Shown: piece after piece, positions 22,157 through 50,183 of the stretch
Numbering within the stretch: position 1 is the first letter of the stretch
How the letters are laid out: each line of letters starts with the position of its first letter
Source: Pseudonocardiales bacterium
Lineage (GTDB): Bacteria; Actinomycetota; Actinomycetes; Mycobacteriales; Pseudonocardiaceae
Length of the DNA stretch: 50,183 nucleotides
Reading direction: 5' to 3'
Assembly (NCBI GenBank): GCA_019241525.1
Contig: JAFAWY010000019.1
Span: forward strand, 1-50,183
The notes under the pieces: generated by a model
Seen by the model: the letters and a program-made list of their open reading frames with translations, nothing else
Database searches by the model: none
What the model was told of the DNA's origin: nothing
Position numbers and translations under genes: made by a program

Positions 22157-22771
22157 TCATGCCGACAGCAGCCGTTGAAAGAACTCGCGGTATCGCTGGA
22201 AGCTCATCCGCAGGTCTTCGGTCGAGGTCGGGTCGCTGATCTGGCCACGACGGACATTCTCGTGGATTTCCTGGAGCGTCCGGTCGACGAGCACGCTCGC
22301 CTCATGTACCGCCCGCTGCGGGTCATCGACGAAGGTTCCCTGCACCTGCTGCCACTCGGCGCGCAGGCCGGCCGGGTCATTGAGCAGTCCCACCCGCTCA
22401 GCGCTGTCGTCCGCCGCTTCCTGGTCGATGCGGCGACGACCCATCTGGGTTTCCTCGGCTGCGGCTGGAGGGCTCTCGGCAGTGCCCGGAGTCGTCTCAG
22501 CGGCGGCTGGGATGGTGGTCTCACCGGCGGCGGGGGTGGTGGTCTCACCGGCGGCGGGGGTGGTGGTCACAGCGGCGGCCGGCGTGGTGGTCTCACCGGC
22601 AGCTTCGGCGGGTGTGTTGGGCGGCGGAACGTCGTGCCCGGCGTCGCTAGGCGCGGTGTTTTCGCGATCATCGGAGTCCAGCGCGCGGCTCAGCTCGCTG
22701 TCGATGAAGCGGCGGACGCGTCCGCCCAAACCCTCTCCCTGTGGTTGTTCGTGTTCTTGTCGGACGTTCAT
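22157..22771 (-). CDS. acidic protein with Thr/Pro/Ala repeats, paralogue of the next gene's tail
   Basis: 204 residues from the ATG at 22771, which follows GGGAGGCAGGAG; the longer open frame upstream overlaps the neighbouring gene and is discarded. The N-terminus (residues 1-30) is charged. Residues ~45-100 hold near-perfect repeats of an 8-residue unit (GETTTPAA). The last ~95 residues hold W-Q-VQ-TFVDDPQRAV-EAS-LVD and a C-terminal MSFQRYREFFQRLL. That end domain is the same as in the protein encoded just upstream on the same strand, so the pair arose by duplication. No signal peptide is visible. The function is unknown, with a stress-related envelope role inferred from its neighbours. 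Confidence 0.8.
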   Translation of the reverse strand: MNVRQEHEQPQGEGLGGRVRRFIDSELSRALDSDDRENTAPSDAGHDVPPPNTPAEAAGETTTPAAAVTTTPAAGETTTPAAGETTIPAAAETTPGTAESPPAAAEETQMGRRRIDQEAADDSAERVGLLNDPAGLRAEWQQVQGTFVDDPQRAVHEASVLVDRTLQEIHENVRRGQISDPTSTEDLRMSFQRYREFFQRLLSA

Positions 22772-43108: not shown

Positions 43109-43780
43109 ATGATGGGTGTGGGCGTCGCGTCGGTGCAGGTCACCCCGGCGTCGACGCTGAGTGAGCGGCTCGACGTCCCGGGCGGCCGGCCATCCTATCC
43201 GGTGATCGAACCGCTTACGGTGTTGCTACCCGGTGGGGGGCTGCGTCGCGGATCAGTGATCGCCGTACGCGGCTCACTGTTGTTGTTGCTGGCATTACTG
43301 GCTGAAGCCACTGTGCAGGGCACCTGGGCTGCGGTAATCGGCGTCGGTGATCTGGGGGTGTTGGCTGCCGCCGAGGCGGGGGTGGTGGTGCGGCGGCTGG
43401 CGCTGATTCCCCGGCCTGGGCCGGATCTGGCGCCAGTGGCTGCAGCGCTGCTTGACGGGGTGGGCTTGGTGGCGTTGGCCGGCGCGGACGGGTTACCTGC
43501 GCGAGCGCGGCAATCCCTGGCTGCCCGGGCGCGACAGCGCGGGTCGGTACTGCTCCCGCTCGGGCAATGGCCGGGCGCAGACGTCGAGCTGGTCTGCCGG
43601 GTCGAAACTTGGCATGGCGCCGAGGGAGGATACGGGCGGTTGCGTAGCCGCGAAGTGGTGGTACGCGCGGTGGGGCGCGGTGCAGCGGCCAGGCCTCGGG
43701 CTGCTCGCTTGTTGCTGCCTGGCCCCGGCGGTGCGGTGACGAAGGCGCTCAGGCACCTGGCGATCAAGGCGGTGCTCTGA
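43109..43780 (+). CDS. ImuA'-type mutasome protein
   Basis: 223 residues from ATG 43109, preceded by GGGAGG, with RecA-like topology but a degenerate nucleotide loop (VLLPGGGLRRGSVIAVRGS instead of GxxxxGKT). This is the actinobacterial ImuA' pattern, in which the ATPase is reduced. The middle (TWAAVIGVGDLGVLAAAEAGV) and the C-terminal region with ELVCRVETWHGAEG are as in ImuA'. It overlaps imuB by one base and shares its SOS box. In mycobacteria ImuA' and ImuB help DnaE2 copy damaged DNA. The longer frame upstream runs through the SOS box and is not used. Confidence 0.88.
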   Translation: MMGVGVASVQVTPASTLSERLDVPGGRPSYPVIEPLTVLLPGGGLRRGSVIAVRGSLLLLLALLAEATVQGTWAAVIGVGDLGVLAAAEAGVVVRRLALIPRPGPDLAPVAAALLDGVGLVALAGADGLPARARQSLAARARQRGSVLLPLGQWPGADVELVCRVETWHGAEGGYGRLRSREVVVRAVGRGAAARPRAARLLLPGPGGAVTKALRHLAIKAVL

Positions 43781-45420
43781 TGATGCCTGCCCGAGTAATG
43801 GTGGTGTGGTGCCCGGACTGGCCCGTGACGGCCGGGGTGGCCGCCGAAGACCTGGCTGCACGGGCACCCGCCGCTGTGGTGTCGGCGAACCGGATTGTGG
43901 CCTGCTCAGCGACAGCCCGGGCGCAGGGCGTGCGCTGTGGTCAACGCCGCCGGGAGGCGCAGGGCTGCTGCCCAGAGCTGGTCGTGCTCACCGACGACCC
44001 GGATCGGGACGCCCGGGCGTTCGAGCCGGTGGCCGCCGCGGTGGAGGGTTTGGCACCTGGCGTGGAGGTGGTGTGTCCTGGGCTGATCGCGTTGCCGGCC
44101 CGCGGCCCGGCTCGGTACTTCGGTGGTGAGGCCGCGGTGGCCGAGCGGATCGTCGACGTGATTGCTACGCAAGCCAGGGTGGAATGCCAGGTCGGCATCG
44201 CCGACGGCCTGTTCGCGGCGACATTGGCCGCGCACCGCGGCCTGCTGGTACCGCCACAAGGATCGGCCGGCTTCCTCGCCCCGCTGAGCATTACCGAGCT
44301 GCACCAGGACGCGACCGGGGTCGATCGGGCCGCGCTGGTGGACTTGTTACATCGGCTGGGACTGCGCACTCTCGGCGCGTTCGCCGCTCTGCCCGTCGAT
44401 GACATTGCTTCCCGGTTCGGCCTCGACGGCGTGCGCGCGCACCGGCTCGCCCGGGGCCTCGGTGAGCGCCCGCTGGCCCGCCGTGATCCCCCAGCCGATC
44501 TCACTGTCACCCGCCGGTTCGACCCACCGCTAGACCGGGTCGACGCGGTGGCATTCGCCTCCCGGGAACCAGCAGAGCAACTGCACGCCGCGCTAGCCGC
44601 CCGCGGCCTGGCCTGCATCCGGCTCGGTATCAGTGCCTGCACCGAGGCGGGCGAGGAGCTGCACCGGGTGTGGCGCTGTGCGGAACCGCTGACGGCCAGC
44701 GGCATCGCTGATCGGGTGCGCTGGCAGCTAGACGGCTGGCTGACTTCCCGGGACTGCCGGCCCAGCACGGGGATCACGCTGCTCCAGCTCACCCCGGAGG
44801 AGGTGATCGGAGGCCAGGCCCTGCAACGCGGGCTATGGGGGGAGTCCGGCGAGGACGACGAACGAGCCGGCCGGGCACTGGTCCGGGTGCAGGCAATGCT
44901 CGGACCCGATGCGGTCTTCACCGGAGTGATTGGCGGCGGCCGGGATCCCACCGATCGGGTACGCCTGGTGCCCTGGGGCGACGACCGGGTCCCTGCGCGT
45001 GGTGCCGAAGACCCGCTTGCGGGGTCGAGCATGTGCACCGAAGACCCGCTTGCGGGGTCGAGCATGTGCACCGCTTCTCCCTGGCCGGGACGGCTGCCTG
45101 CGCCGTCTCCGTCCCGGGTGTTTACCCGCCCACTGCCCGCAGAGGTGCTCGACGATGCCGGATGCGTTGTCGGGGTAAGTGGGCGCGGCCGGCTCACCGG
45201 TGTCCCGTACCGGATCGCGATGGATGGCAACCCGCCGCGTCGGGTGCTGGCCTGGGCCGGCCCCTGGCCAGTCGAGGAGCGTTGGTGGGAACCGGGCGGG
45301 GGACGGCGCTGCGCGCGGATGCAGGCGGTGCTCGATGTCACCGGACCCGCCGACGACCCGCTTGCCGTGCTGCTGGCCTGCGAAACGGGTCACTGGCGGG
45401 TCGAGGGAATCTACGAGTAG
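43780..45420 (+). CDS. imuB: ImuB, Y-family-like accessory protein of translesion synthesis
   Basis: A 546-residue Y-family polymerase homologue lacking the catalytic acidic residues: its first strand reads VVWCPDWPV where active polymerases have a metal-binding DxD. A helix-hairpin-helix region (LLHRLGLRTLGAFAALPVDDIASRFG) and a little-finger domain follow. At 349-353 it holds QRGLW, a fit to the beta-clamp motif QxxLW known from mycobacterial ImuB. Residues 410-431 are two in-frame copies of EDPLAGSSMCT encoded by a 33-bp tandem repeat, between VPARGA and ASPWPGRLPAP, a junction not interrupted in typical ImuB. The C-terminal domain is intact to the end. Confidence 0.92.
   Translation: MMPARVMVVWCPDWPVTAGVAAEDLAARAPAAVVSANRIVACSATARAQGVRCGQRRREAQGCCPELVVLTDDPDRDARAFEPVAAAVEGLAPGVEVVCPGLIALPARGPARYFGGEAAVAERIVDVIATQARVECQVGIADGLFAATLAAHRGLLVPPQGSAGFLAPLSITELHQDATGVDRAALVDLLHRLGLRTLGAFAALPVDDIASRFGLDGVRAHRLARGLGERPLARRDPPADLTVTRRFDPPLDRVDAVAFASREPAEQLHAALAARGLACIRLGISACTEAGEELHRVWRCAEPLTASGIADRVRWQLDGWLTSRDCRPSTGITLLQLTPEEVIGGQALQRGLWGESGEDDERAGRALVRVQAMLGPDAVFTGVIGGGRDPTDRVRLVPWGDDRVPARGAEDPLAGSSMCTEDPLAGSSMCTASPWPGRLPAPSPSRVFTRPLPAEVLDDAGCVVGVSGRGRLTGVPYRIAMDGNPPRRVLAWAGPWPVEERWWEPGGGRRCARMQAVLDVTGPADDPLAVLLACETGHWRVEGIYE
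45007..45072 (+). repeat. 33-bp hairpin repeat, two in-frame copies inside imuB
   Basis: Exact copies at 45007-45039 and 45040-45072. The core GACCCGCTTGCGGGGTC is a near-perfect inverted repeat (one bulged G, 2-nt loop). The 20-bp core (AGACC to GTCGA) matches that of the dnaE2 repeats at 18 of 20 positions, and the two mismatches face each other in the stem. Confidence 0.9.
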
Positions 45421-45484
45421 CGCACTATCAGTGAGGTCTTTATGGCAGCGTCGATCAACCTTAATCGACGGCTGTGGACAGGCC

Positions 45485-46468
45485 TCAGAGCCTGGACCAG
45501 CTATCAGGCTGGGAACCGTCGATATCAGTAAAGCCGTACTCACGAGCGAGATCGGCTGAGGTCACCGAGCGCTGATTCCACCGTGCTCGCTGAGAGTCCG
45601 TGGCAAAGTGCCGTGACCGCGCGACCGACATAGCGCGGTGACTCGGAGTTCTCGAAGCCCTCCGGCGCCGGCGGATATCCCTGGACCGAGCCGTCAAGAG
45701 CCTCGCGCCAGTTCTCCTCGGTCACGCCGAAGTTGCCCAGCATCATCTCCGAACGCAGCCATCCCGGCGTAACGGCAACGGCGGTGGCGCCATAGGGGCG
45801 AGTTCGTGGCCTTGGGAGAAGGCCAGCCGGTTCACCGCCACCTTTGCCAGGTCGTAGAACACCGAGATCCGGTACCGCTCTGCGTTGAAGGTGGTCGTGC
45901 CGTCGGTGACCTCGACAAGCAATCCACCCGGCCGGTCGATCAGCAACGGCAGCAGGTGATGGGATGTGATCAGGTGGGTGTCGATCGCCAGTCGCAGGAT
46001 GCGCAACCCAGCTTCCACGTCGTGCCGCCAGATCGGTGTGTTCCACGTCGGCGGGGGACCTTTCAGGACCTCGGCCCCCCAGATGTCGTTGACCAGGACA
46101 TCGATGTGGCCGTGGTCGTGGCGCACGCCCGCAGCCAGCTGCCGCACTTGCGTGGACTCGAGATGATCGACCTGGATCGCGATTCCGACCCCGCCAAGTT
46201 GGGTTACCAGCTCGGCGGTCTCCTCGATGGTCTCGGCGCGCGAGTAGTCCGATCGGATCGCTCTGCTCCCGCTTCTACTGCTGCGTCCAGTACAGATCAC
46301 CGTCGCACCGGCTTCACCCAAAGCGGTCGCGATGCCGCGCCCCGCGCCTCGAGTCGCGCCGGCTACCACCGCAACCCGATCACGAAGGGCGCCAGGATCC
46401 GGAGACCATGCCACAACACCGAGTCTCTCAGGCCGCACGCGACGAGACGTCGGCACGCAGCTGTGCAC
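45485..46468 (-). pseudogene. short-chain dehydrogenase, frameshifted
   Basis: A classical SDR: Rossmann start VAVVAGATRGAGRGIATALGE, DVLVNDIWGAE, then LLVEVTDGTTTFN and RYRISVFYDLAKVAVNRLAFSQG, in which Y and K of the YxxxK box are present. A frame change near 45805 moves the reading to ATAVAVTPGWLRSEMMLGNF. A second near 45590 moves it to SADLAREYGFTDIDGSQPDSW, which ends at 45485. These three pieces in order make a full-length protein of about 320 residues. It lies downstream of imuB in the opposite orientation; the neighbouring SDR is intact. Confidence 0.78.
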
Positions 46469-46498
46469 TGTGCGCGTACAGTTGCTGCCCGCCGTAGA

Positions 46499-47362
46499 TC
46501 ACTCGGGATCGAAGCTGGTGGCGCGGGACAACGGCTCCCACACCGCGATCTCGTCACGAACTGAGGCCAGGTGAGCCTGGATTCCATCGACGGCATCGCT
46601 GCCCAGGGGCAGGCGCAGCGGTGGGTGGTCAGCGGCTAGCGCGGTGAGGATGGCTGCGGCCGCCTTGGCCGGGTCGCCGGGCTGCGTGCCGTCACCGCTG
46701 GTCACATACTGCCGTGTCGGGCCGACCGTTGCGGCATATTCCGGCATGGCAGCGGACAGGTACGCCGACCCGGCGGCGAACAGCCCGGTGCGGAACGCGC
46801 CAGGCTCCACGATCAGGAAGCGGACCCCGAAGTCCACCTCCTGGCTTAGGGTCTGGGTTAAACCTTCGAGCGCGAACTTGGTCGCGCAATAGGCGCCGAA
46901 GCCCGGCGCGGTGATCTGACCACCGACACTGGACATCTGCACCACCGCCCCGCCGCCCTGGCGGCGCATATGTGGCAGCACCGCCCTGGTCAGTGCCGCC
47001 GGCCCGAAGAAATGCAGTTCGAACAGGTACCGCAGCTCCTGCTCGGTCGTCTCCTCCAGGGCTCCCACCTGGGTTCGGCCGGCGTTGTTGACCAGTACGT
47101 CGATGCGATCATGCCGGGCAATGATCTCATCGATGACCCGAGTGGCGTCCATGTCCGTCACGTCGAGAGCGATGGCGTGGGCCTGACCGGGATACGCGCC
47201 GACCAGGTCATCGAGGGCCGGCGATCGACGGGCAGCGGCGACCACGATGTCGCCGGCGTCGAGTGCGGCGGTGGCGATAGCACGCCCAAACCCGCTACTG
47301 GCACCGGTGATCAGCCAGACCCGGGGAGATCGTTGCTCGGTTTGTGCCACGAGCCCACGCAT
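46499..47362 (-). CDS. short-chain dehydrogenase/reductase
   Basis: A 287-residue classical SDR with the cofactor loop TGASSGFGRAIATAAL, DVTDMDATRVIDEI, VLVNNAGRTQVGAL, catalytic Ser in VVQMSSVGGQI and YCATKFALEGLTQTL (YxxxK). Substrate specificity is unknown; the fold is like those acting on ketones or in oxidoreductase pairs. Its start could be 47362 or a few codons further in (GTG 47347). It is 30 bp upstream of the broken SDR on the same strand, so both probably came from one operon. Confidence 0.9.
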   Translation of the reverse strand: MRGLVAQTEQRSPRVWLITGASSGFGRAIATAALDAGDIVVAAARRSPALDDLVGAYPGQAHAIALDVTDMDATRVIDEIIARHDRIDVLVNNAGRTQVGALEETTEQELRYLFELHFFGPAALTRAVLPHMRRQGGGAVVQMSSVGGQITAPGFGAYCATKFALEGLTQTLSQEVDFGVRFLIVEPGAFRTGLFAAGSAYLSAAMPEYAATVGPTRQYVTSGDGTQPGDPAKAAAAILTALAADHPPLRLPLGSDAVDGIQAHLASVRDEIAVWEPLSRATSFDPE

Positions 47363-47497
47363 ACACCCGCCCTACCGCCTGGGCAATCCGCGGTGCCACA
47401 CCTGCTGGGCACCGAATTTTTCCGGCGCGCTCGACCATCGGCGCCATGGTGGGAAGATGTGTCGGGTGACCACCACAGACGTTGATCGCTGCGGGGC

Positions 47498-48364
47498 GTG
47501 ATGCCGTCCCTGTACCAGCTGCACGCGCATGACCCAGTGGAGTCGCCTGTACTGCTCTTGGCAACGGAGAGCTGGACCGACGCCGGCCTCGGCGCCCAGG
47601 CGGCCATTGCCCAGATTCTCGGGACGGTACCGACGGATGTGCTGGCCTCGTTCGACTCGGACCGTTTGATCGACTTTCGGTCCCGCCGTCCTATCGTGCG
47701 TATCTCCGACGGAGTCGTTGAAAGCCTGAGCTGGCCCGAGATCCAGCTTCGGGTCGGCAGGGACAGTGCAGGCAGGAGCCTTCTCGTCCTGGTGGGACCT
47801 GAGCCGGACATGGCTTGGCATGCCTTTGTGGGGGCGGTGGTGGATCTGGCCACCCAGCTTGAGGTGCGGCTGGTGACCGGTGTCGGCGCTTACGCCGCTC
47901 CTGTTCCCCATACTCGCCCGGTCAGGTTGATGGCCATCGCCACCAAAGCTGAGCTCGCCGCCCAAGTCGGGGTAGTGGCCGGGACCGCTGAGATGCCGGC
48001 GGGAATCCAGACTGCGCTCCAGGAAGGGTTCGCCGGCGTGGGCATACCAGCGATCGGGGTGTGGGCGCGGGTGCCGCACTACCTGGCAGCTACCCCTTAC
48101 CCAGCGGCCGCCGCCGCTCTCGTCGAAGCGCTGGCTACCGTTACCGGGCTGGAGCTTGACAGTGGGCCATTGCATGCCGCGGCGGCCAGCATATCGGGCC
48201 AGATCGACGAGATTGTCGCGAACAACGAGGAATACCGGCTGCTGGTAAGCCGTCTCGAGGCTGCTTTCGACGACGAGCTGACTCCCCCTTCTGGCCTTCC
48301 CTCCGGTGACGAACTCGCCGCTGAACTTGAGCGCTTCCTGCGCGGCGAGCAAGACGAGCACTAG
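47498..48364 (+). CDS. PAC2-family protein
   Basis: A 288-residue PAC2 (proteasome assembly chaperone 2-like) protein, a family common in actinobacteria: LATESWTDAGLGAQAAIAQI, LVLVGPEPDMAWHAFVGAVV, VTGVGAYAAPVPHTRPV, GVWARVPHYLAATPYPAAAAALV. It ends in an acidic, helical tail (FDDELTPPSGLPSGDELAAE). It may act with the proteasome or with adjacent repair functions, but neither is shown. It is upstream of dnaE2, from which it is separated by a hairpin and an SOS box. Confidence 0.85.
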   Translation: MMPSLYQLHAHDPVESPVLLLATESWTDAGLGAQAAIAQILGTVPTDVLASFDSDRLIDFRSRRPIVRISDGVVESLSWPEIQLRVGRDSAGRSLLVLVGPEPDMAWHAFVGAVVDLATQLEVRLVTGVGAYAAPVPHTRPVRLMAIATKAELAAQVGVVAGTAEMPAGIQTALQEGFAGVGIPAIGVWARVPHYLAATPYPAAAAALVEALATVTGLELDSGPLHAAAASISGQIDEIVANNEEYRLLVSRLEAAFDDELTPPSGLPSGDELAAELERFLRGEQDEH

Positions 48365-48376
48365 GCCGGTCATGAC

Positions 48377-48399
48377 GGACAGCCGTGCCATGGCTGTCC
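48377..48399 (+). terminator. hairpin after the PAC2 gene
   Basis: The arms GGACAGCC and GGCTGTCC (8 perfect pairs, 7-nt loop) lie 12 bp after the PAC2 stop and directly before the SOS box. No T-run follows, but place and symmetry suit a terminator isolating the dnaE2 promoter. Confidence 0.6.
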
Positions 48400-48404
48400 C
48401 ACCT

Positions 48405-48442
48405 CATAGCTAGTATCGAACTTATGTTCGATACTAGCTATG
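48405..48442 (+). promoter_or_regulatory. extended SOS box (LexA operator) of dnaE2
   Basis: The LexA core TCGAACTTATGTTCGA sits inside a perfect palindrome with 17-bp arms (CATAGCTAGTATCGAAC and its complement, 4-nt centre TTAT), far beyond the usual 14-16 bp of a SOS box. A likely -10 TATGAT (48439-48444) overlaps its right edge. It lies 26 bp before the dnaE2 start. Confidence 0.88.
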
Positions 48443-48467
48443 ATCCGTTACTCACCTAGAGCTGTCC

Positions 48468-50183
48468 ATGGGCTGGAACAACCCACCGGTGCGGTGGGTG
48501 GACTTGGAACGCGTGTTATCCGGGCGGTCCGCTCCCGGTGACGGGGGAGACAGCCCGGCGTGGACACGTCACCGGGATCGCTACGAGCCCCCGCCGCTGC
48601 TCTCGCCGGCTCGATCATCGGAGACCCGACCGGGGACTCCCTACGCCGAGCTGCACTGCCACTCCAACTTCAGCTTCCTGGACGGGGCCAGCCACCCGGA
48701 GGAACTGGTCGAGGAGGCGGCCCGGTTGGGGCTGGAAGCGATTGCGATCACCGACCACGACGGGATGTACGGGGTGGTGCGCTTTGCCGAGGCGGCCCGC
48801 GAGCTGGGCGTCAAGACCGTCTTCGGCGCGGAGCTGTCCCTGGGCCTGTCCGCACCGCAGAACGGGGTACCCGATCCGGAGGGTGAGCACCTACTCGTAC
48901 TTGCCCGTGATCCCGAGGGGTACCGCAGGCTGTCCCGTGTGATCAGCCACGCCCAGATCGCCGGGCGGGAGAAGGGTAAGCCGCTCTATGACCTCGACGC
49001 GGTAGCAGCTGCCGCGGGCGGGCATTGGGTGGTGCTCACCGGTTGCCGCAAGGCAGCGGTGCGCCGAGCGCTGGAGCGCGCCGGTCGGGCCGCGGCGGCA
49101 GCGCAGCTACGCCGCTTGATCGAGCTGTTCGGCCCTGACCACGTCGCCGTCGAGCTCACCGCTCACGGCCTGGCCGAGGACACCGAGCGCAACGATGCGC
49201 TGGCCGCGCTGGCCGCAGCGCACGGGCTGGACACCGTCGCCACCACTGCTGCGCACTACGCCACCCCGTCCCGGCACCGGCTGGCCACCGTGCTGGCCGC
49301 GGTCCGGGCCCGGCGCAGCCTGGACGAGATGGATGGCTGGTTGCCCGCGGCCGGCACCGCACACCTGCGGTCCGGCGCCGAGATGGCGCAGCGGTTTGCC
49401 CGCTGGCCCGGCGCTGTCGAACGGGCCGCCGCGCTGGGCCGGGCCTGCTCGTTTGACCTGCATTTGGTGGCGCCGGACCTGCCGCCGTTCGCCGTCCCCC
49501 GCGGGTACACCGAGGCCGGCTGGCTGCGGGAGCTCACCTGGGCCGGTGCGGCCGCCCGATACGGCAGCTACGACGAGCGTCCCGGCGCCTTTCATCAGAT
49601 CGAGCACGAGCTGACCGTCATCGAGGAGAAGAACTTCCCCGGCTACTTCCTCATCGTGCACGACATCGTGGCGTTCTGCCGGCGGGCCGGGATCTTCTGC
49701 CAGGGGCGCGGCTCGGCGGCCAATTCCGCGGTCTGCTACGCGCTGGGCATCACCAGCGTCGACGCAGTGGCGATGGACCTGCTTTTCGAACGGTTCCTCG
49801 CCCCGGATCGGGACGGCTATCCCGACATCGACCTCGACATCGAATCCGACCGGCGCGAGGAGGCCATCCAGTACGTCTACAACAAGTACGGCCGGGACCG
49901 CGCTGCCCAGGTCGCCAACGTGATCACCTACCGGGCCCGCTCGGCGGTGCGGGATGTGGCCAAGGCGCTGGGTTACTCCGCAGGCACCCAGGATGCGTGG
50001 AGCAAGCAGATCGACCGGTGGGGGCCGCTGGGCCAGGCCAAGGCCGAGACCGGTGTTAATGGTTCGACCCTGCAAGCAGGTCTCACTGTTAATGGTTCGA
50101 CCCTGCAAGCAGGTCTCACTGTTAATGGTTCGACCCTGCAAGCAGGTCTCACTGTTAATGGTTCGACCCTGCAAGCAGGTCTC
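48468..50183 (+). CDS. dnaE2: error-prone DNA polymerase DnaE2 (5' part, cut by window end)
   Basis: The first 572 codons of an alpha-subunit-type C-family polymerase (complete proteins are about 1,050-1,100 aa). The PHP domain begins at about 65 (YAELHCHSNFSFLDGASHPEELVEEA, ITDHDGMYGVVRFAE). The polymerase core shows FPGYFLIVHDIVAFCR, CQGRGSAANSAVCYALGIT and PDIDLDIESDRREEAIQYV with the catalytic Asp residues. From codon 530 the reading enters four in-frame copies of VNGSTLQAGLT (33-bp repeats), inserted after GPLGQAKAETG in the variable linker that follows the catalytic aspartates. The start is ATG 48468, just past the SOS box. The repeats keep the frame open to the window end. Confidence 0.93.
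   Translation, partial: MGWNNPPVRWVDLERVLSGRSAPGDGGDSPAWTRHRDRYEPPPLLSPARSSETRPGTPYAELHCHSNFSFLDGASHPEELVEEAARLGLEAIAITDHDGMYGVVRFAEAARELGVKTVFGAELSLGLSAPQNGVPDPEGEHLLVLARDPEGYRRLSRVISHAQIAGREKGKPLYDLDAVAAAAGGHWVVLTGCRKAAVRRALERAGRAAAAAQLRRLIELFGPDHVAVELTAHGLAEDTERNDALAALAAAHGLDTVATTAAHYATPSRHRLATVLAAVRARRSLDEMDGWLPAAGTAHLRSGAEMAQRFARWPGAVERAAALGRACSFDLHLVAPDLPPFAVPRGYTEAGWLRELTWAGAAARYGSYDERPGAFHQIEHELTVIEEKNFPGYFLIVHDIVAFCRRAGIFCQGRGSAANSAVCYALGITSVDAVAMDLLFERFLAPDRDGYPDIDLDIESDRREEAIQYVYNKYGRDRAAQVANVITYRARSAVRDVAKALGYSAGTQDAWSKQIDRWGPLGQAKAETGVNGSTLQAGLTVNGSTLQAGLTVNGSTLQAGLTVNGSTLQAGL
50055..50183 (+). repeat. 33-bp tandem repeat inside dnaE2, at least four copies
   Basis: Identical units at 50055-50087, 50088-50120, 50121-50153 and 50154-50183 (the last cut by the window). 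The core GACCCTGCAAGCAGGTC is a near inverted repeat; on the other strand it reads GACCTGCTTGCAGGGTC, matching the imuB core with two covarying changes. Each unit adds exactly 11 codons and no stop. Confidence 0.9.

Follow-up and report, generated by a model that had tools for sequence, protein, structure and literature searches.

Palindromic repeats inside genes, DnaE2 included, are already known from other bacteria. For the GTAG and CGTC superfamilies of REP elements, Di Nocera et al. (2013; PMC3733652) describe palindromes of 20-40 bp with moderate copy number, which form clusters and also occur in frame inside DnaE2 and other repair genes; the CGTC type has no dedicated transposase. The palindromic elements of Rickettsia (Ogata et al., 2000, 2002), according to PMC10969869 and PMC3733652, are selfish palindromes of about 150 bp inserted in frame in unrelated genes.

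The DNA analyzed here (the window) is a whole contig of 50,183 nucleotides (C121 of genome G000, Pseudonocardiales bacterium), in which imuB and dnaE2 both carry arrays of a 33-bp repeat. With a probability of roughly 0.8, a small palindromic DNA element of Pseudonocardiaceae, REP/RPE-like and tolerated in genes, has inserted twice to give these arrays. The element resembles REPs in being a short imperfect palindrome with clusters and many copies, and the CGTC type in the absence of a dedicated transposase. However, REPs form head-head dimers, while the 33-bp units form head-to-tail arrays, have an outer dinucleotide that covaries beyond GA/GA, and were found here in a single family of actinobacteria. 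The element shares with the Rickettsia elements its presence in frame in unrelated protein-coding genes; it differs from their published description in its size, its tandem amplification and its phylum.

The ends of IS200/IS605 elements are strand-specific single-strand hairpins with guide and cleavage sequences. The bulged, strand-specific hairpin of the 33-bp unit and its short facing 5' and 3' tetranucleotides would resemble these, but no Y1 transposase was found in the genus.

The imuB and dnaE2 arrays

The features of the locus are listed in Table 1. The imuB array consists of two identical 33-bp units, the two tandem copies claimed in the first-pass annotation, and TRF delimited it as 45005-45073 (2.1 copies, 100% match). 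The dnaE2 array contains 3.9 perfect units and runs into the contig end. Because the window is the whole contig and the array is open at that end, the four cores are the minimum present, in agreement with the claim of at least four copies. The hairpin strand of this array is antisense to dnaE2, opposite to the orientation in imuB. As had been proposed, both insertions leave the reading frames open. Their supposed location in linkers between conserved domains was correct for imuB, where the array falls in a linker whose length varies among relatives, but not for dnaE2, where the array occupies a variable loop inside the PF07733 polymerase domain.

Table 1. Features of the imuB-dnaE2 locus in the window
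Feature	Position	Strand	Description
imuB-like Y-family polymerase homologue	43780..45420	+	Pfam IMS PF00817, 4.4e-15; matched over all or nearly all of its length in relatives
imuB array unit 1, type A	45005..45037	+	CCGAA + 17-bp hairpin + GAGCAT + 5
imuB array unit 2	45038..45070	+	Identical to unit 1; followed by partial CCG
Perfect inverted repeat with 18-bp arms around a 4-bp gap	48404..48443	.	Upstream of dnaE2; contains TCGAAC-N4-GTTCGA
dnaE2, cut by contig end	48468..50183	+	PHP PF02811 and DNA_pol3_alpha PF07733
dnaE2 array, type B, four cores	50054..50183	-	GTGA + 17-bp hairpin + GAACCAT + 5

Compared with the empty second imuB of the same assembly (on C148), the imuB with the array is longer by a net 66 nt, as counted in the linkers read. 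Seven imuB linkers in the genus were read (window, L084, L089, L092, L094-L096); G002, G004 and G006 (pattern unmatched) and G008 (no imuB match) fall outside this comparison. Among the linkers compared, only the window and G009 have the array; neither the second imuB in the assembly nor the linkers of G001, G003, G005, G007 and G010 carry it. Units in dnaE2 are present in G000, G001, G002, G005, G009 and G010. The dnaE2 of five genus members (G003, G004, G006, G007 and G008) carries no unit.

The inverted repeat upstream of dnaE2 is not a member of the 33-bp family. The TCGAAC-N4-GTTCGA motif in it is a LexA/SOS-box-like site.

Structure of the 33-bp unit

Between the 17-bp cores GACCCGCTTGCGGGGTC and GACCTGCTTGCAGGGTC there are two differences, at positions that face and pair with each other, so the compensatory change first noticed between the two genes was confirmed. 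The inner stem, GACC-YGC / GCR-GGTC, contains a bulged G and closes on a 2-nt loop. Beyond it, type B units have facing GA/GA followed by an outer 2-bp pair, and type A units have GAA/GA followed by one C-G pair. The outer dinucleotides of type B, which lie outside the retrieval pattern, are complementary in 27 of 30 rows. When seven rows recognized as dnaE2 or cysN homologues are removed, among them one of the three non-complementary rows, 21 of 23 remain complementary, in six dinucleotide combinations.

Covariation was analyzed in alignments A1 (type B, 30 rows) and A2 (type A, 34 rows). In A1, 98.9% of the cells were paired against 90.0% in shuffled alignments and the covariation score was 0.254 against 0.094; the respective values in A2 were 100% against 95.5% and 0.178 against 0.086, and none of 500 shuffles reached any of these values. 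Two of five measures were not outstanding throughout: further pair types were reached by 371 of 500 shuffles in A1 and 474 of 500 in A2, and pairs with a double change by 47 of 500 in A2. The folding check suggested in the first-pass annotation gave no support, as predicted energies of single units were no better than those of shuffles; these energies are uninformative, and the hairpin is supported by covariation.

Neither GTAG nor CGTC is invariant at either end of the units in A1 and A2. MITEs have terminal inverted repeats and duplicate their target site. No clear duplication was seen by eye between filled and empty cysN sites, and the signal in type A is limited to a partial ACCG at the right end. 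Unlike CRISPR arrays, the repeats have no unique spacers; the stretch between cores is short and mostly identical within one array. Since tandem copies mostly share this variable stretch, expansion appears to be local. Openness in all frames was rejected as evidence of adaptation: none of the six frames of the type A consensus is closed, which also holds for 12-23% of shuffles, and type B consensus units have no more than 4 or 5 open frames.

Distribution, insertion steps and the search for a transposase

The core was matched six times in the window against 0.06 expected, and G000 contains 18 exact cores but none of the reversed control sequence, numbers well beyond chance. At E 0.05 or better, at least 40 model matches were found in G000, at least 57 in its sister G009 and, again as lower bounds, between 2 and 11 per genome in the nine other members of the genus; the single-contig relative G012 had at least 58 at E 0.001, with no more than 150 candidates scored per genome. 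The exact tandem pattern occurred in 43 stretches among 84,980 genomes, all labelled Pseudonocardiaceae/Pseudonocardiales except one same-genus MAG labelled "Actinobacteria" and one probably mislabelled record. Viral carriage was rejected, with 0 matches of both the exact tandem and the exact single type A pattern in viral_contigs. Rfam covariance models gave no match up to E 1 in positions 44000-50183 of the window. Among the open-licence PMC papers listed, no description of the family was found, and in the accessible portion of the REP survey the words searched for actinobacteria had no match.

The comparison of copy number between relatives, which had been proposed with the original observation, revealed differences at several orthologous sites. 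The cysN start spacing is 10 nt in G003, G004, G006 and G008 (no unit), 43 nt in G002 and G010 (one unit) and 76 nt in G000 (two units), and the site is empty but 19 nt long in G001, G005 and G007; the dnaE2 site measures 34 nt in G003, G004 and G008 against 67 nt in G002. This length comparison was made without the dnaE2 of the window, L084, L121, L122 and L124 and without both G009 cysN ends. At ligA, compared without G004, three units stand against one. Differences at ligA, and at the dnaE2 sites of G001 and G005, are not clean multiples of 33. An array at a convergent junction common to G000 and G009 has a 34-bp period and five against four units. Where empty and filled sites compare cleanly, one copy adds 33 bp, and copies accumulate head to tail. 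One copy thus adds 11 residues to a protein and leaves the frame intact. We infer that filled sites reflect gain of a unit rather than loss.

The arrays resemble minisatellites (VNTRs) in being tandem and variable in copy number between relatives, but here one unit family with a conserved, structured core occurs at many loci. Ordinary tandem repeats that arose separately in each gene by slippage, and are alike by chance or by convergence at GC-rich hairpins, would account for the shared stretch within arrays. Yet unrelated sites share one conserved sequence whose borders can be defined, with sequence identity between loci, and single copies are present as 33-bp insertions, so such an origin is scarcely credible.

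The size, bulged hairpin, facing 5' and 3' tags, clusters and intragenic copies would suit a classical REP family whose hairpins are cut and pasted by a Y1 (RAYT) transposase. However, PF01797 was detected in none of the 11 genus genomes, the genome of the window included, nor in G012, and in only one of 11 distinct carriers outside the genus, with positive E. coli controls. The carrier set of 14 entries corresponds to 12 genomes (G019 and G028 are apparently the same as G360 and G358), one of which is G009. Conversely, the five genomes in which the search that covered the genus did detect PF01797 had no repeat by sequence pattern. Together with the missing GTAG or CGTC tag, this leaves RAYT mobilization unsupported and unlikely.

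Spread and expansion of the element may proceed through a single-stranded DNA hairpin. Expansion could occur by replication slippage or template switching and dispersal through the action of an enzyme.

Host genes and biological meaning

Arrays were found inside unrelated proteins such as NRPS, PKS, NuoL-like, PurL-like, HrpA, ABC transporter and others. A list chosen and labelled by hand, with rough codon scoring for gene context, contained 22 intragenic arrays in 20 proteins (leaving out L188, which has no Pfam hit, and a single-unit DacB copy). They are read in several frames, 12 in sense and 10 in antisense orientation, and all their 37 spacings are divisible by 3. Nineteen lie between or inside conserved regions; the L172 and three-unit DacB arrays are beyond the last Pfam domain, and the L189 array precedes the domain of its protein, where the sequence to the left of the array gave no coding signal.

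Many copies in the own genome are located at gene starts or junctions (cysN, ligA, scpA and a NuoK-like gene). This location, and covariation that fits RNA as well, would agree with an element acting in mRNA on stability or translation; such a role is very unlikely given the 12 sense and 10 antisense arrays in genes, although the facing GA/GA is present on one strand only.

The first-pass annotation had weighed a mobile or expanding family against an added linker with a function. As a linker, the 11-residue peptide repeats would adjust how ImuB and DnaE2 are spaced or interact in the mutasome, and their copy number would tune mutagenesis. Arrays in both partner genes of one locus and the dnaE2 units of six genomes are in line with this, as is the recurrence of repair genes as intragenic REP hosts in the literature (PMC3733652). 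In addition, of the annotated own-genome sites, just those in imuB and dnaE2 lie clearly within the body of a gene; this annotation excludes six weaker sites on C4, C16, C18, C100, C102 and C135 and the sites in L071, L074, L075, L232, L233 and L234. However, the unit peptides of the two genes differ (EDPLAGSSMCT and NGSTLQAGLTV), the imuB array is missing in the second imuB of the assembly and in the five other genus linkers read, five dnaE2 genes have no unit, and the same repeats occur in NRPS, PKS and the other unrelated hosts. A functional linker is thus very unlikely, and a mutasome-specific function was rejected as the main reading because of these hosts. With arrays in unrelated proteins, both orientations and several frames, the link to the mutasome is not special.

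The many copies, the 33-bp steps and the orthologous differences instead support a mobile or expanding family tolerated in frame, and the 33-bp repeats are best read as new actinobacterial REP/RPE-like palindromes, small mobile DNA rather than a feature of mutagenesis. Survival of intragenic insertions would be confined to loops, linkers or tails that can take up the extra peptide, and this would account for imuB, dnaE2 and the other hosts. As the two polymerase genes are the sole clear mid-gene sites annotated in the genome, insertions may have a weak bias toward dispensable repair polymerases; a similar remark is made for other REPs by Di Nocera et al. (2013; PMC3733652). More tentatively, the frame-neutral hairpin might spread without a recognizable transposase of its own and colonize coding sequence, recognized via facing N2GA / GAN2 tags around its bulged stem and moved by a host or undiscovered single-strand nuclease; it would then possibly be the smallest selfish element with genes as its habitat.

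These results add a structured, frame-neutral palindromic repeat family to the actinobacteria. In draft assemblies contigs end at its arrays, which also make predicted proteins longer, and the presence of repeats in both partners of a complex does not have to mean a function there. The series of zero, one and two units within one genus makes the movement of RAYT-less REPs directly testable.

The repeat arrays of imuB and dnaE2 and the structure of the unit

Tandem 33-bp units in both imuB and dnaE2, as described in the first-pass annotation, were confirmed by measurement. The window is one entire contig of the assembly G000 (4.72 Mb, 148 contigs, completeness 98.16%, contamination 2.71%), and six core matches were observed in it against 0.06 expected. 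Both arrays had been placed in variable linkers between conserved domains. This was correct for imuB, in which the linker varies in length among relatives, but not for dnaE2, in which the array interrupts PF07733 at a place where the PolIII alpha 2hpi alignment is also gapped.

Features of the window, with the strand of the hairpin relative to the host gene
Feature	Position	Hairpin strand	Description
Tandem array	22494-22600		24 bp x 4.5
imuB	43780-45420		Pfam-supported
imuB array	45005-45070	sense	two identical 33-bp units
Two short-chain dehydrogenase genes	45540-47362		Pfam; between imuB and a PAC2-family gene
Inverted repeat	48404-48443		perfect, 18-bp; just upstream of dnaE2
dnaE2	48468 to contig end		Pfam-supported
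dnaE2 array	50054-50183	antisense	3.9 units of 33 bp

The inverted repeat upstream of dnaE2 is a longer palindrome around TCGAAC-TTAT-GTTCGA, which resembles a LexA (SOS) box. The first short-chain dehydrogenase gene partly overlaps a second ORF and is possibly frameshifted. A second imu locus of the same assembly (L084, contig C148) has imuB, a similar gene and dnaE2 closely spaced, without the two dehydrogenase genes. The unit of the 24-bp array is GTCTCACCGGCGGCGGGGGTGGTG.

The arrays could be lined up into two main types of 33 bp in total. Type A consists of CCGAA, the 17-bp core, GAGCAT and 5 nt, and type B of N1N2GA, the 17-bp core, GA-M1M2-CAT and 5 nt. By information content, the left border is sharp and the right border weaker, with a partial ACCG retained at the right end of type A. 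The inner stem is GACC-YGC / GCR-GGTC plus one extra G. The inner and outer stems are separated by GA opposite GA, which may form sheared G.A pairs.

Of 30 type B rows, 27 had an N1N2 that was the reverse complement of M1M2; once seven homologous dnaE2/cysN rows (one failing) were removed, the figure was 21 of 23, spread over six dinucleotide pairs. None of these positions was part of the retrieval pattern. Paired cells reached 98.9% in the type B alignment against 90.0% when shuffled, with a covariation score of 0.254 against 0.094 and 0/500 shuffles attaining either value, and 100% against 95.5% in type A (score 0.178 against 0.086); the rows are related, therefore these figures are not probabilities. 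Further pair types showed no excess over shuffles in either alignment. The proposal that the stem is kept by compensatory changes was supported by covariation in both types. Predicted folding energies of single units were no better than those of shuffles.

Distribution of the family

The exact core was detected 18 times in G000 and 0 times with the reversed control, far above chance. Allowing up to three mismatches gave 51 matches, compared with 13 for the control, which means that chance explains many of the weakest ones; the paired changes GAACC..GGTTC and GGCC..GGCC were seen among the 51. A covariance model built from 52 units and applied to up to 150 candidates in each genome retrieved, at E <= 0.05, at least 40 matches in G000, at least 57 in its sister G009 and at least 2-11 in each of nine other genus members. 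At E 0.001 it retrieved at least 58 in G012, a single-contig relative of the same family in which the near-exact pattern found only 2.

The 19-bp pattern with one mismatch was positive in 17 of 61 genomes, comprising 11/11 of the genus, 4/26 other family members (G012, G019, G026 and G028) and 2/24 at order level, both with a single imperfect match. The strict tandem pattern identified 43 stretches among 84,980 named species genomes, a set from which the window's own genome is possibly absent. Their titles name Pseudonocardiaceae/Pseudonocardiales, genera of that family (membership was checked for six; Pseudonocardia and Kutzneria also belong to it) or the same-genus Centralia_MAG_342. The one exception, titled Rhodococcus rhodnii (L160 / G362, JOAA01), has a 12.4-Mb genome with 30 repeat matches and two Y1 transposases, and is probably mislabelled since this size is far above that of R. 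rhodnii. Among 296 genomes sampled across the phylum, a set with no other family member, the window's own genome alone was positive for the tandem pattern, which had 0 matches in a viral collection.

Arrays coincide with the end of the window and, in G009, with eight or more contig ends (C94, both ends of C169, C36, C229, C216, C217 and C67). They are also carried by isolate assemblies, so a single faulty assembly does not account for them.

Copy number at orthologous sites and host genes

Copy number differed between relatives when orthologous sites were compared. At the cysN start, the anchor-to-anchor distance was 10 nt in G003, G004, G006 and G008, 43 nt (one unit) in G002 and G010, and 76 nt (two units) in G000. 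G001, G005 and G007 were empty at 19 nt, and G009 had several units, its contigs ending inside the array. The dnaE2 gap was 34 nt in G003, G004 and G008 and 67 nt in G002; G001 and G005 had units plus extra length (85 and 97 nt), G010 one variant unit, and G006 and G007 none. In ligA, G000 had three units and G006, G009 and G010 a single unit each; that of G002 was degenerate, and G001, G003, G005, G007 and G008 had no unit. Lengths at ligA were not clean.

The imuB on C148 was empty, with a linker of 28 residues against 50, exactly 66 nt shorter, and imuB arrays were found only in the window and G009. The C148 locus was 77-89% identical to that of the window piece by piece over longer matches, unevenly so, with 88.7% over the dnaE2 part adjoining the array, and its dnaE2 had two units. 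It may represent a true paralogue, recombination or strain mixture.

Hosts of intragenic arrays in other genomes were two NRPS proteins (one of them with a pair of arrays), a PKS (two internal arrays and a third at the border of the retrieved sequence), ArsA, ABC transporters (including one of G009), a PurL-like protein, biotin carboxylase, a NuoL-like subunit, an HrpA-like helicase, a P-type ATPase, a sarcosine oxidase-like protein, D-Ala-D-Ala carboxypeptidase, poly(A)/CCA polymerase and a TPP enzyme. The other annotated Pfam-matched sites of G000 were close to the start or end of a gene or to a junction (ligA, cysN, scpA, a NuoK-like gene, lspA, an MnhB-like gene, M16 peptidases and others). 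Among 22 hand-picked intragenic arrays, 19 lay between or inside conserved regions and three in end regions; 12 were sense and 10 antisense, and 18 encoded one of three peptides (EDxLAGSS 9, LDPASxSS 6, STLxAGL 3), with four others. All 37 of their spacings were multiples of three: 33 measured 33 bp, two measured 30 bp, and the remaining two 27 and 21 bp.

A third subtype, with a core one base longer (GACCTGCTTGTCAGGGTC), occupies a convergent gene junction in G000 (L231, contig C73) and G009 (L247, contig C182); its period is 34 bp, and ~15 nt of its last unit overlap the end of one ORF. Given this period and a 32-bp step in L162, whose surroundings show no clear coding frame, spacing seems less strict outside genes, where 33 is still the commonest period.

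Possible mobilization and comparison with known repeats

The family is dispersed in one clade, changes in 33-bp steps, keeps its structure by covariation, is present within genes in either orientation and differs in copy number. With the unrelated host genes, these observations support the earlier suggestion of a mobile or expanding family tolerated in frame.

Y1 transposases (RAYT, PF01797) move REPs and IS200/IS605 elements. None was detected in the 11 genus genomes or G012, nor in 10 of 11 distinct repeat carriers outside the genus, the exception being the record titled R. rhodnii; several of the genomes are drafts. Five of 37 genomes had one, all five without the repeat by the 19-bp one-mismatch pattern.

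No prior description of the 33-bp Pseudonocardiaceae family was found in open-licence literature. Di Nocera et al. (2013; PMC3733652) describe GTAG and CGTC REPs, some intragenic and in frame, with DnaE2 and other repair genes among their hosts, and propose that Y1 transposases move REPs; a word search of the main text returned no mention of 'actinobacter', Frankia, Saccharo or Amycolatopsis. The present family resembles these REPs in its copies in DnaE2 and its intragenic, in-frame location, and shares in-frame copies in genes with the Rickettsia palindromic elements, the classic in-frame case as presented in PMC10969869.

The moving or slipping form would be a single-stranded DNA hairpin, and the units may survive inside genes through frame neutrality plus tolerant sites.
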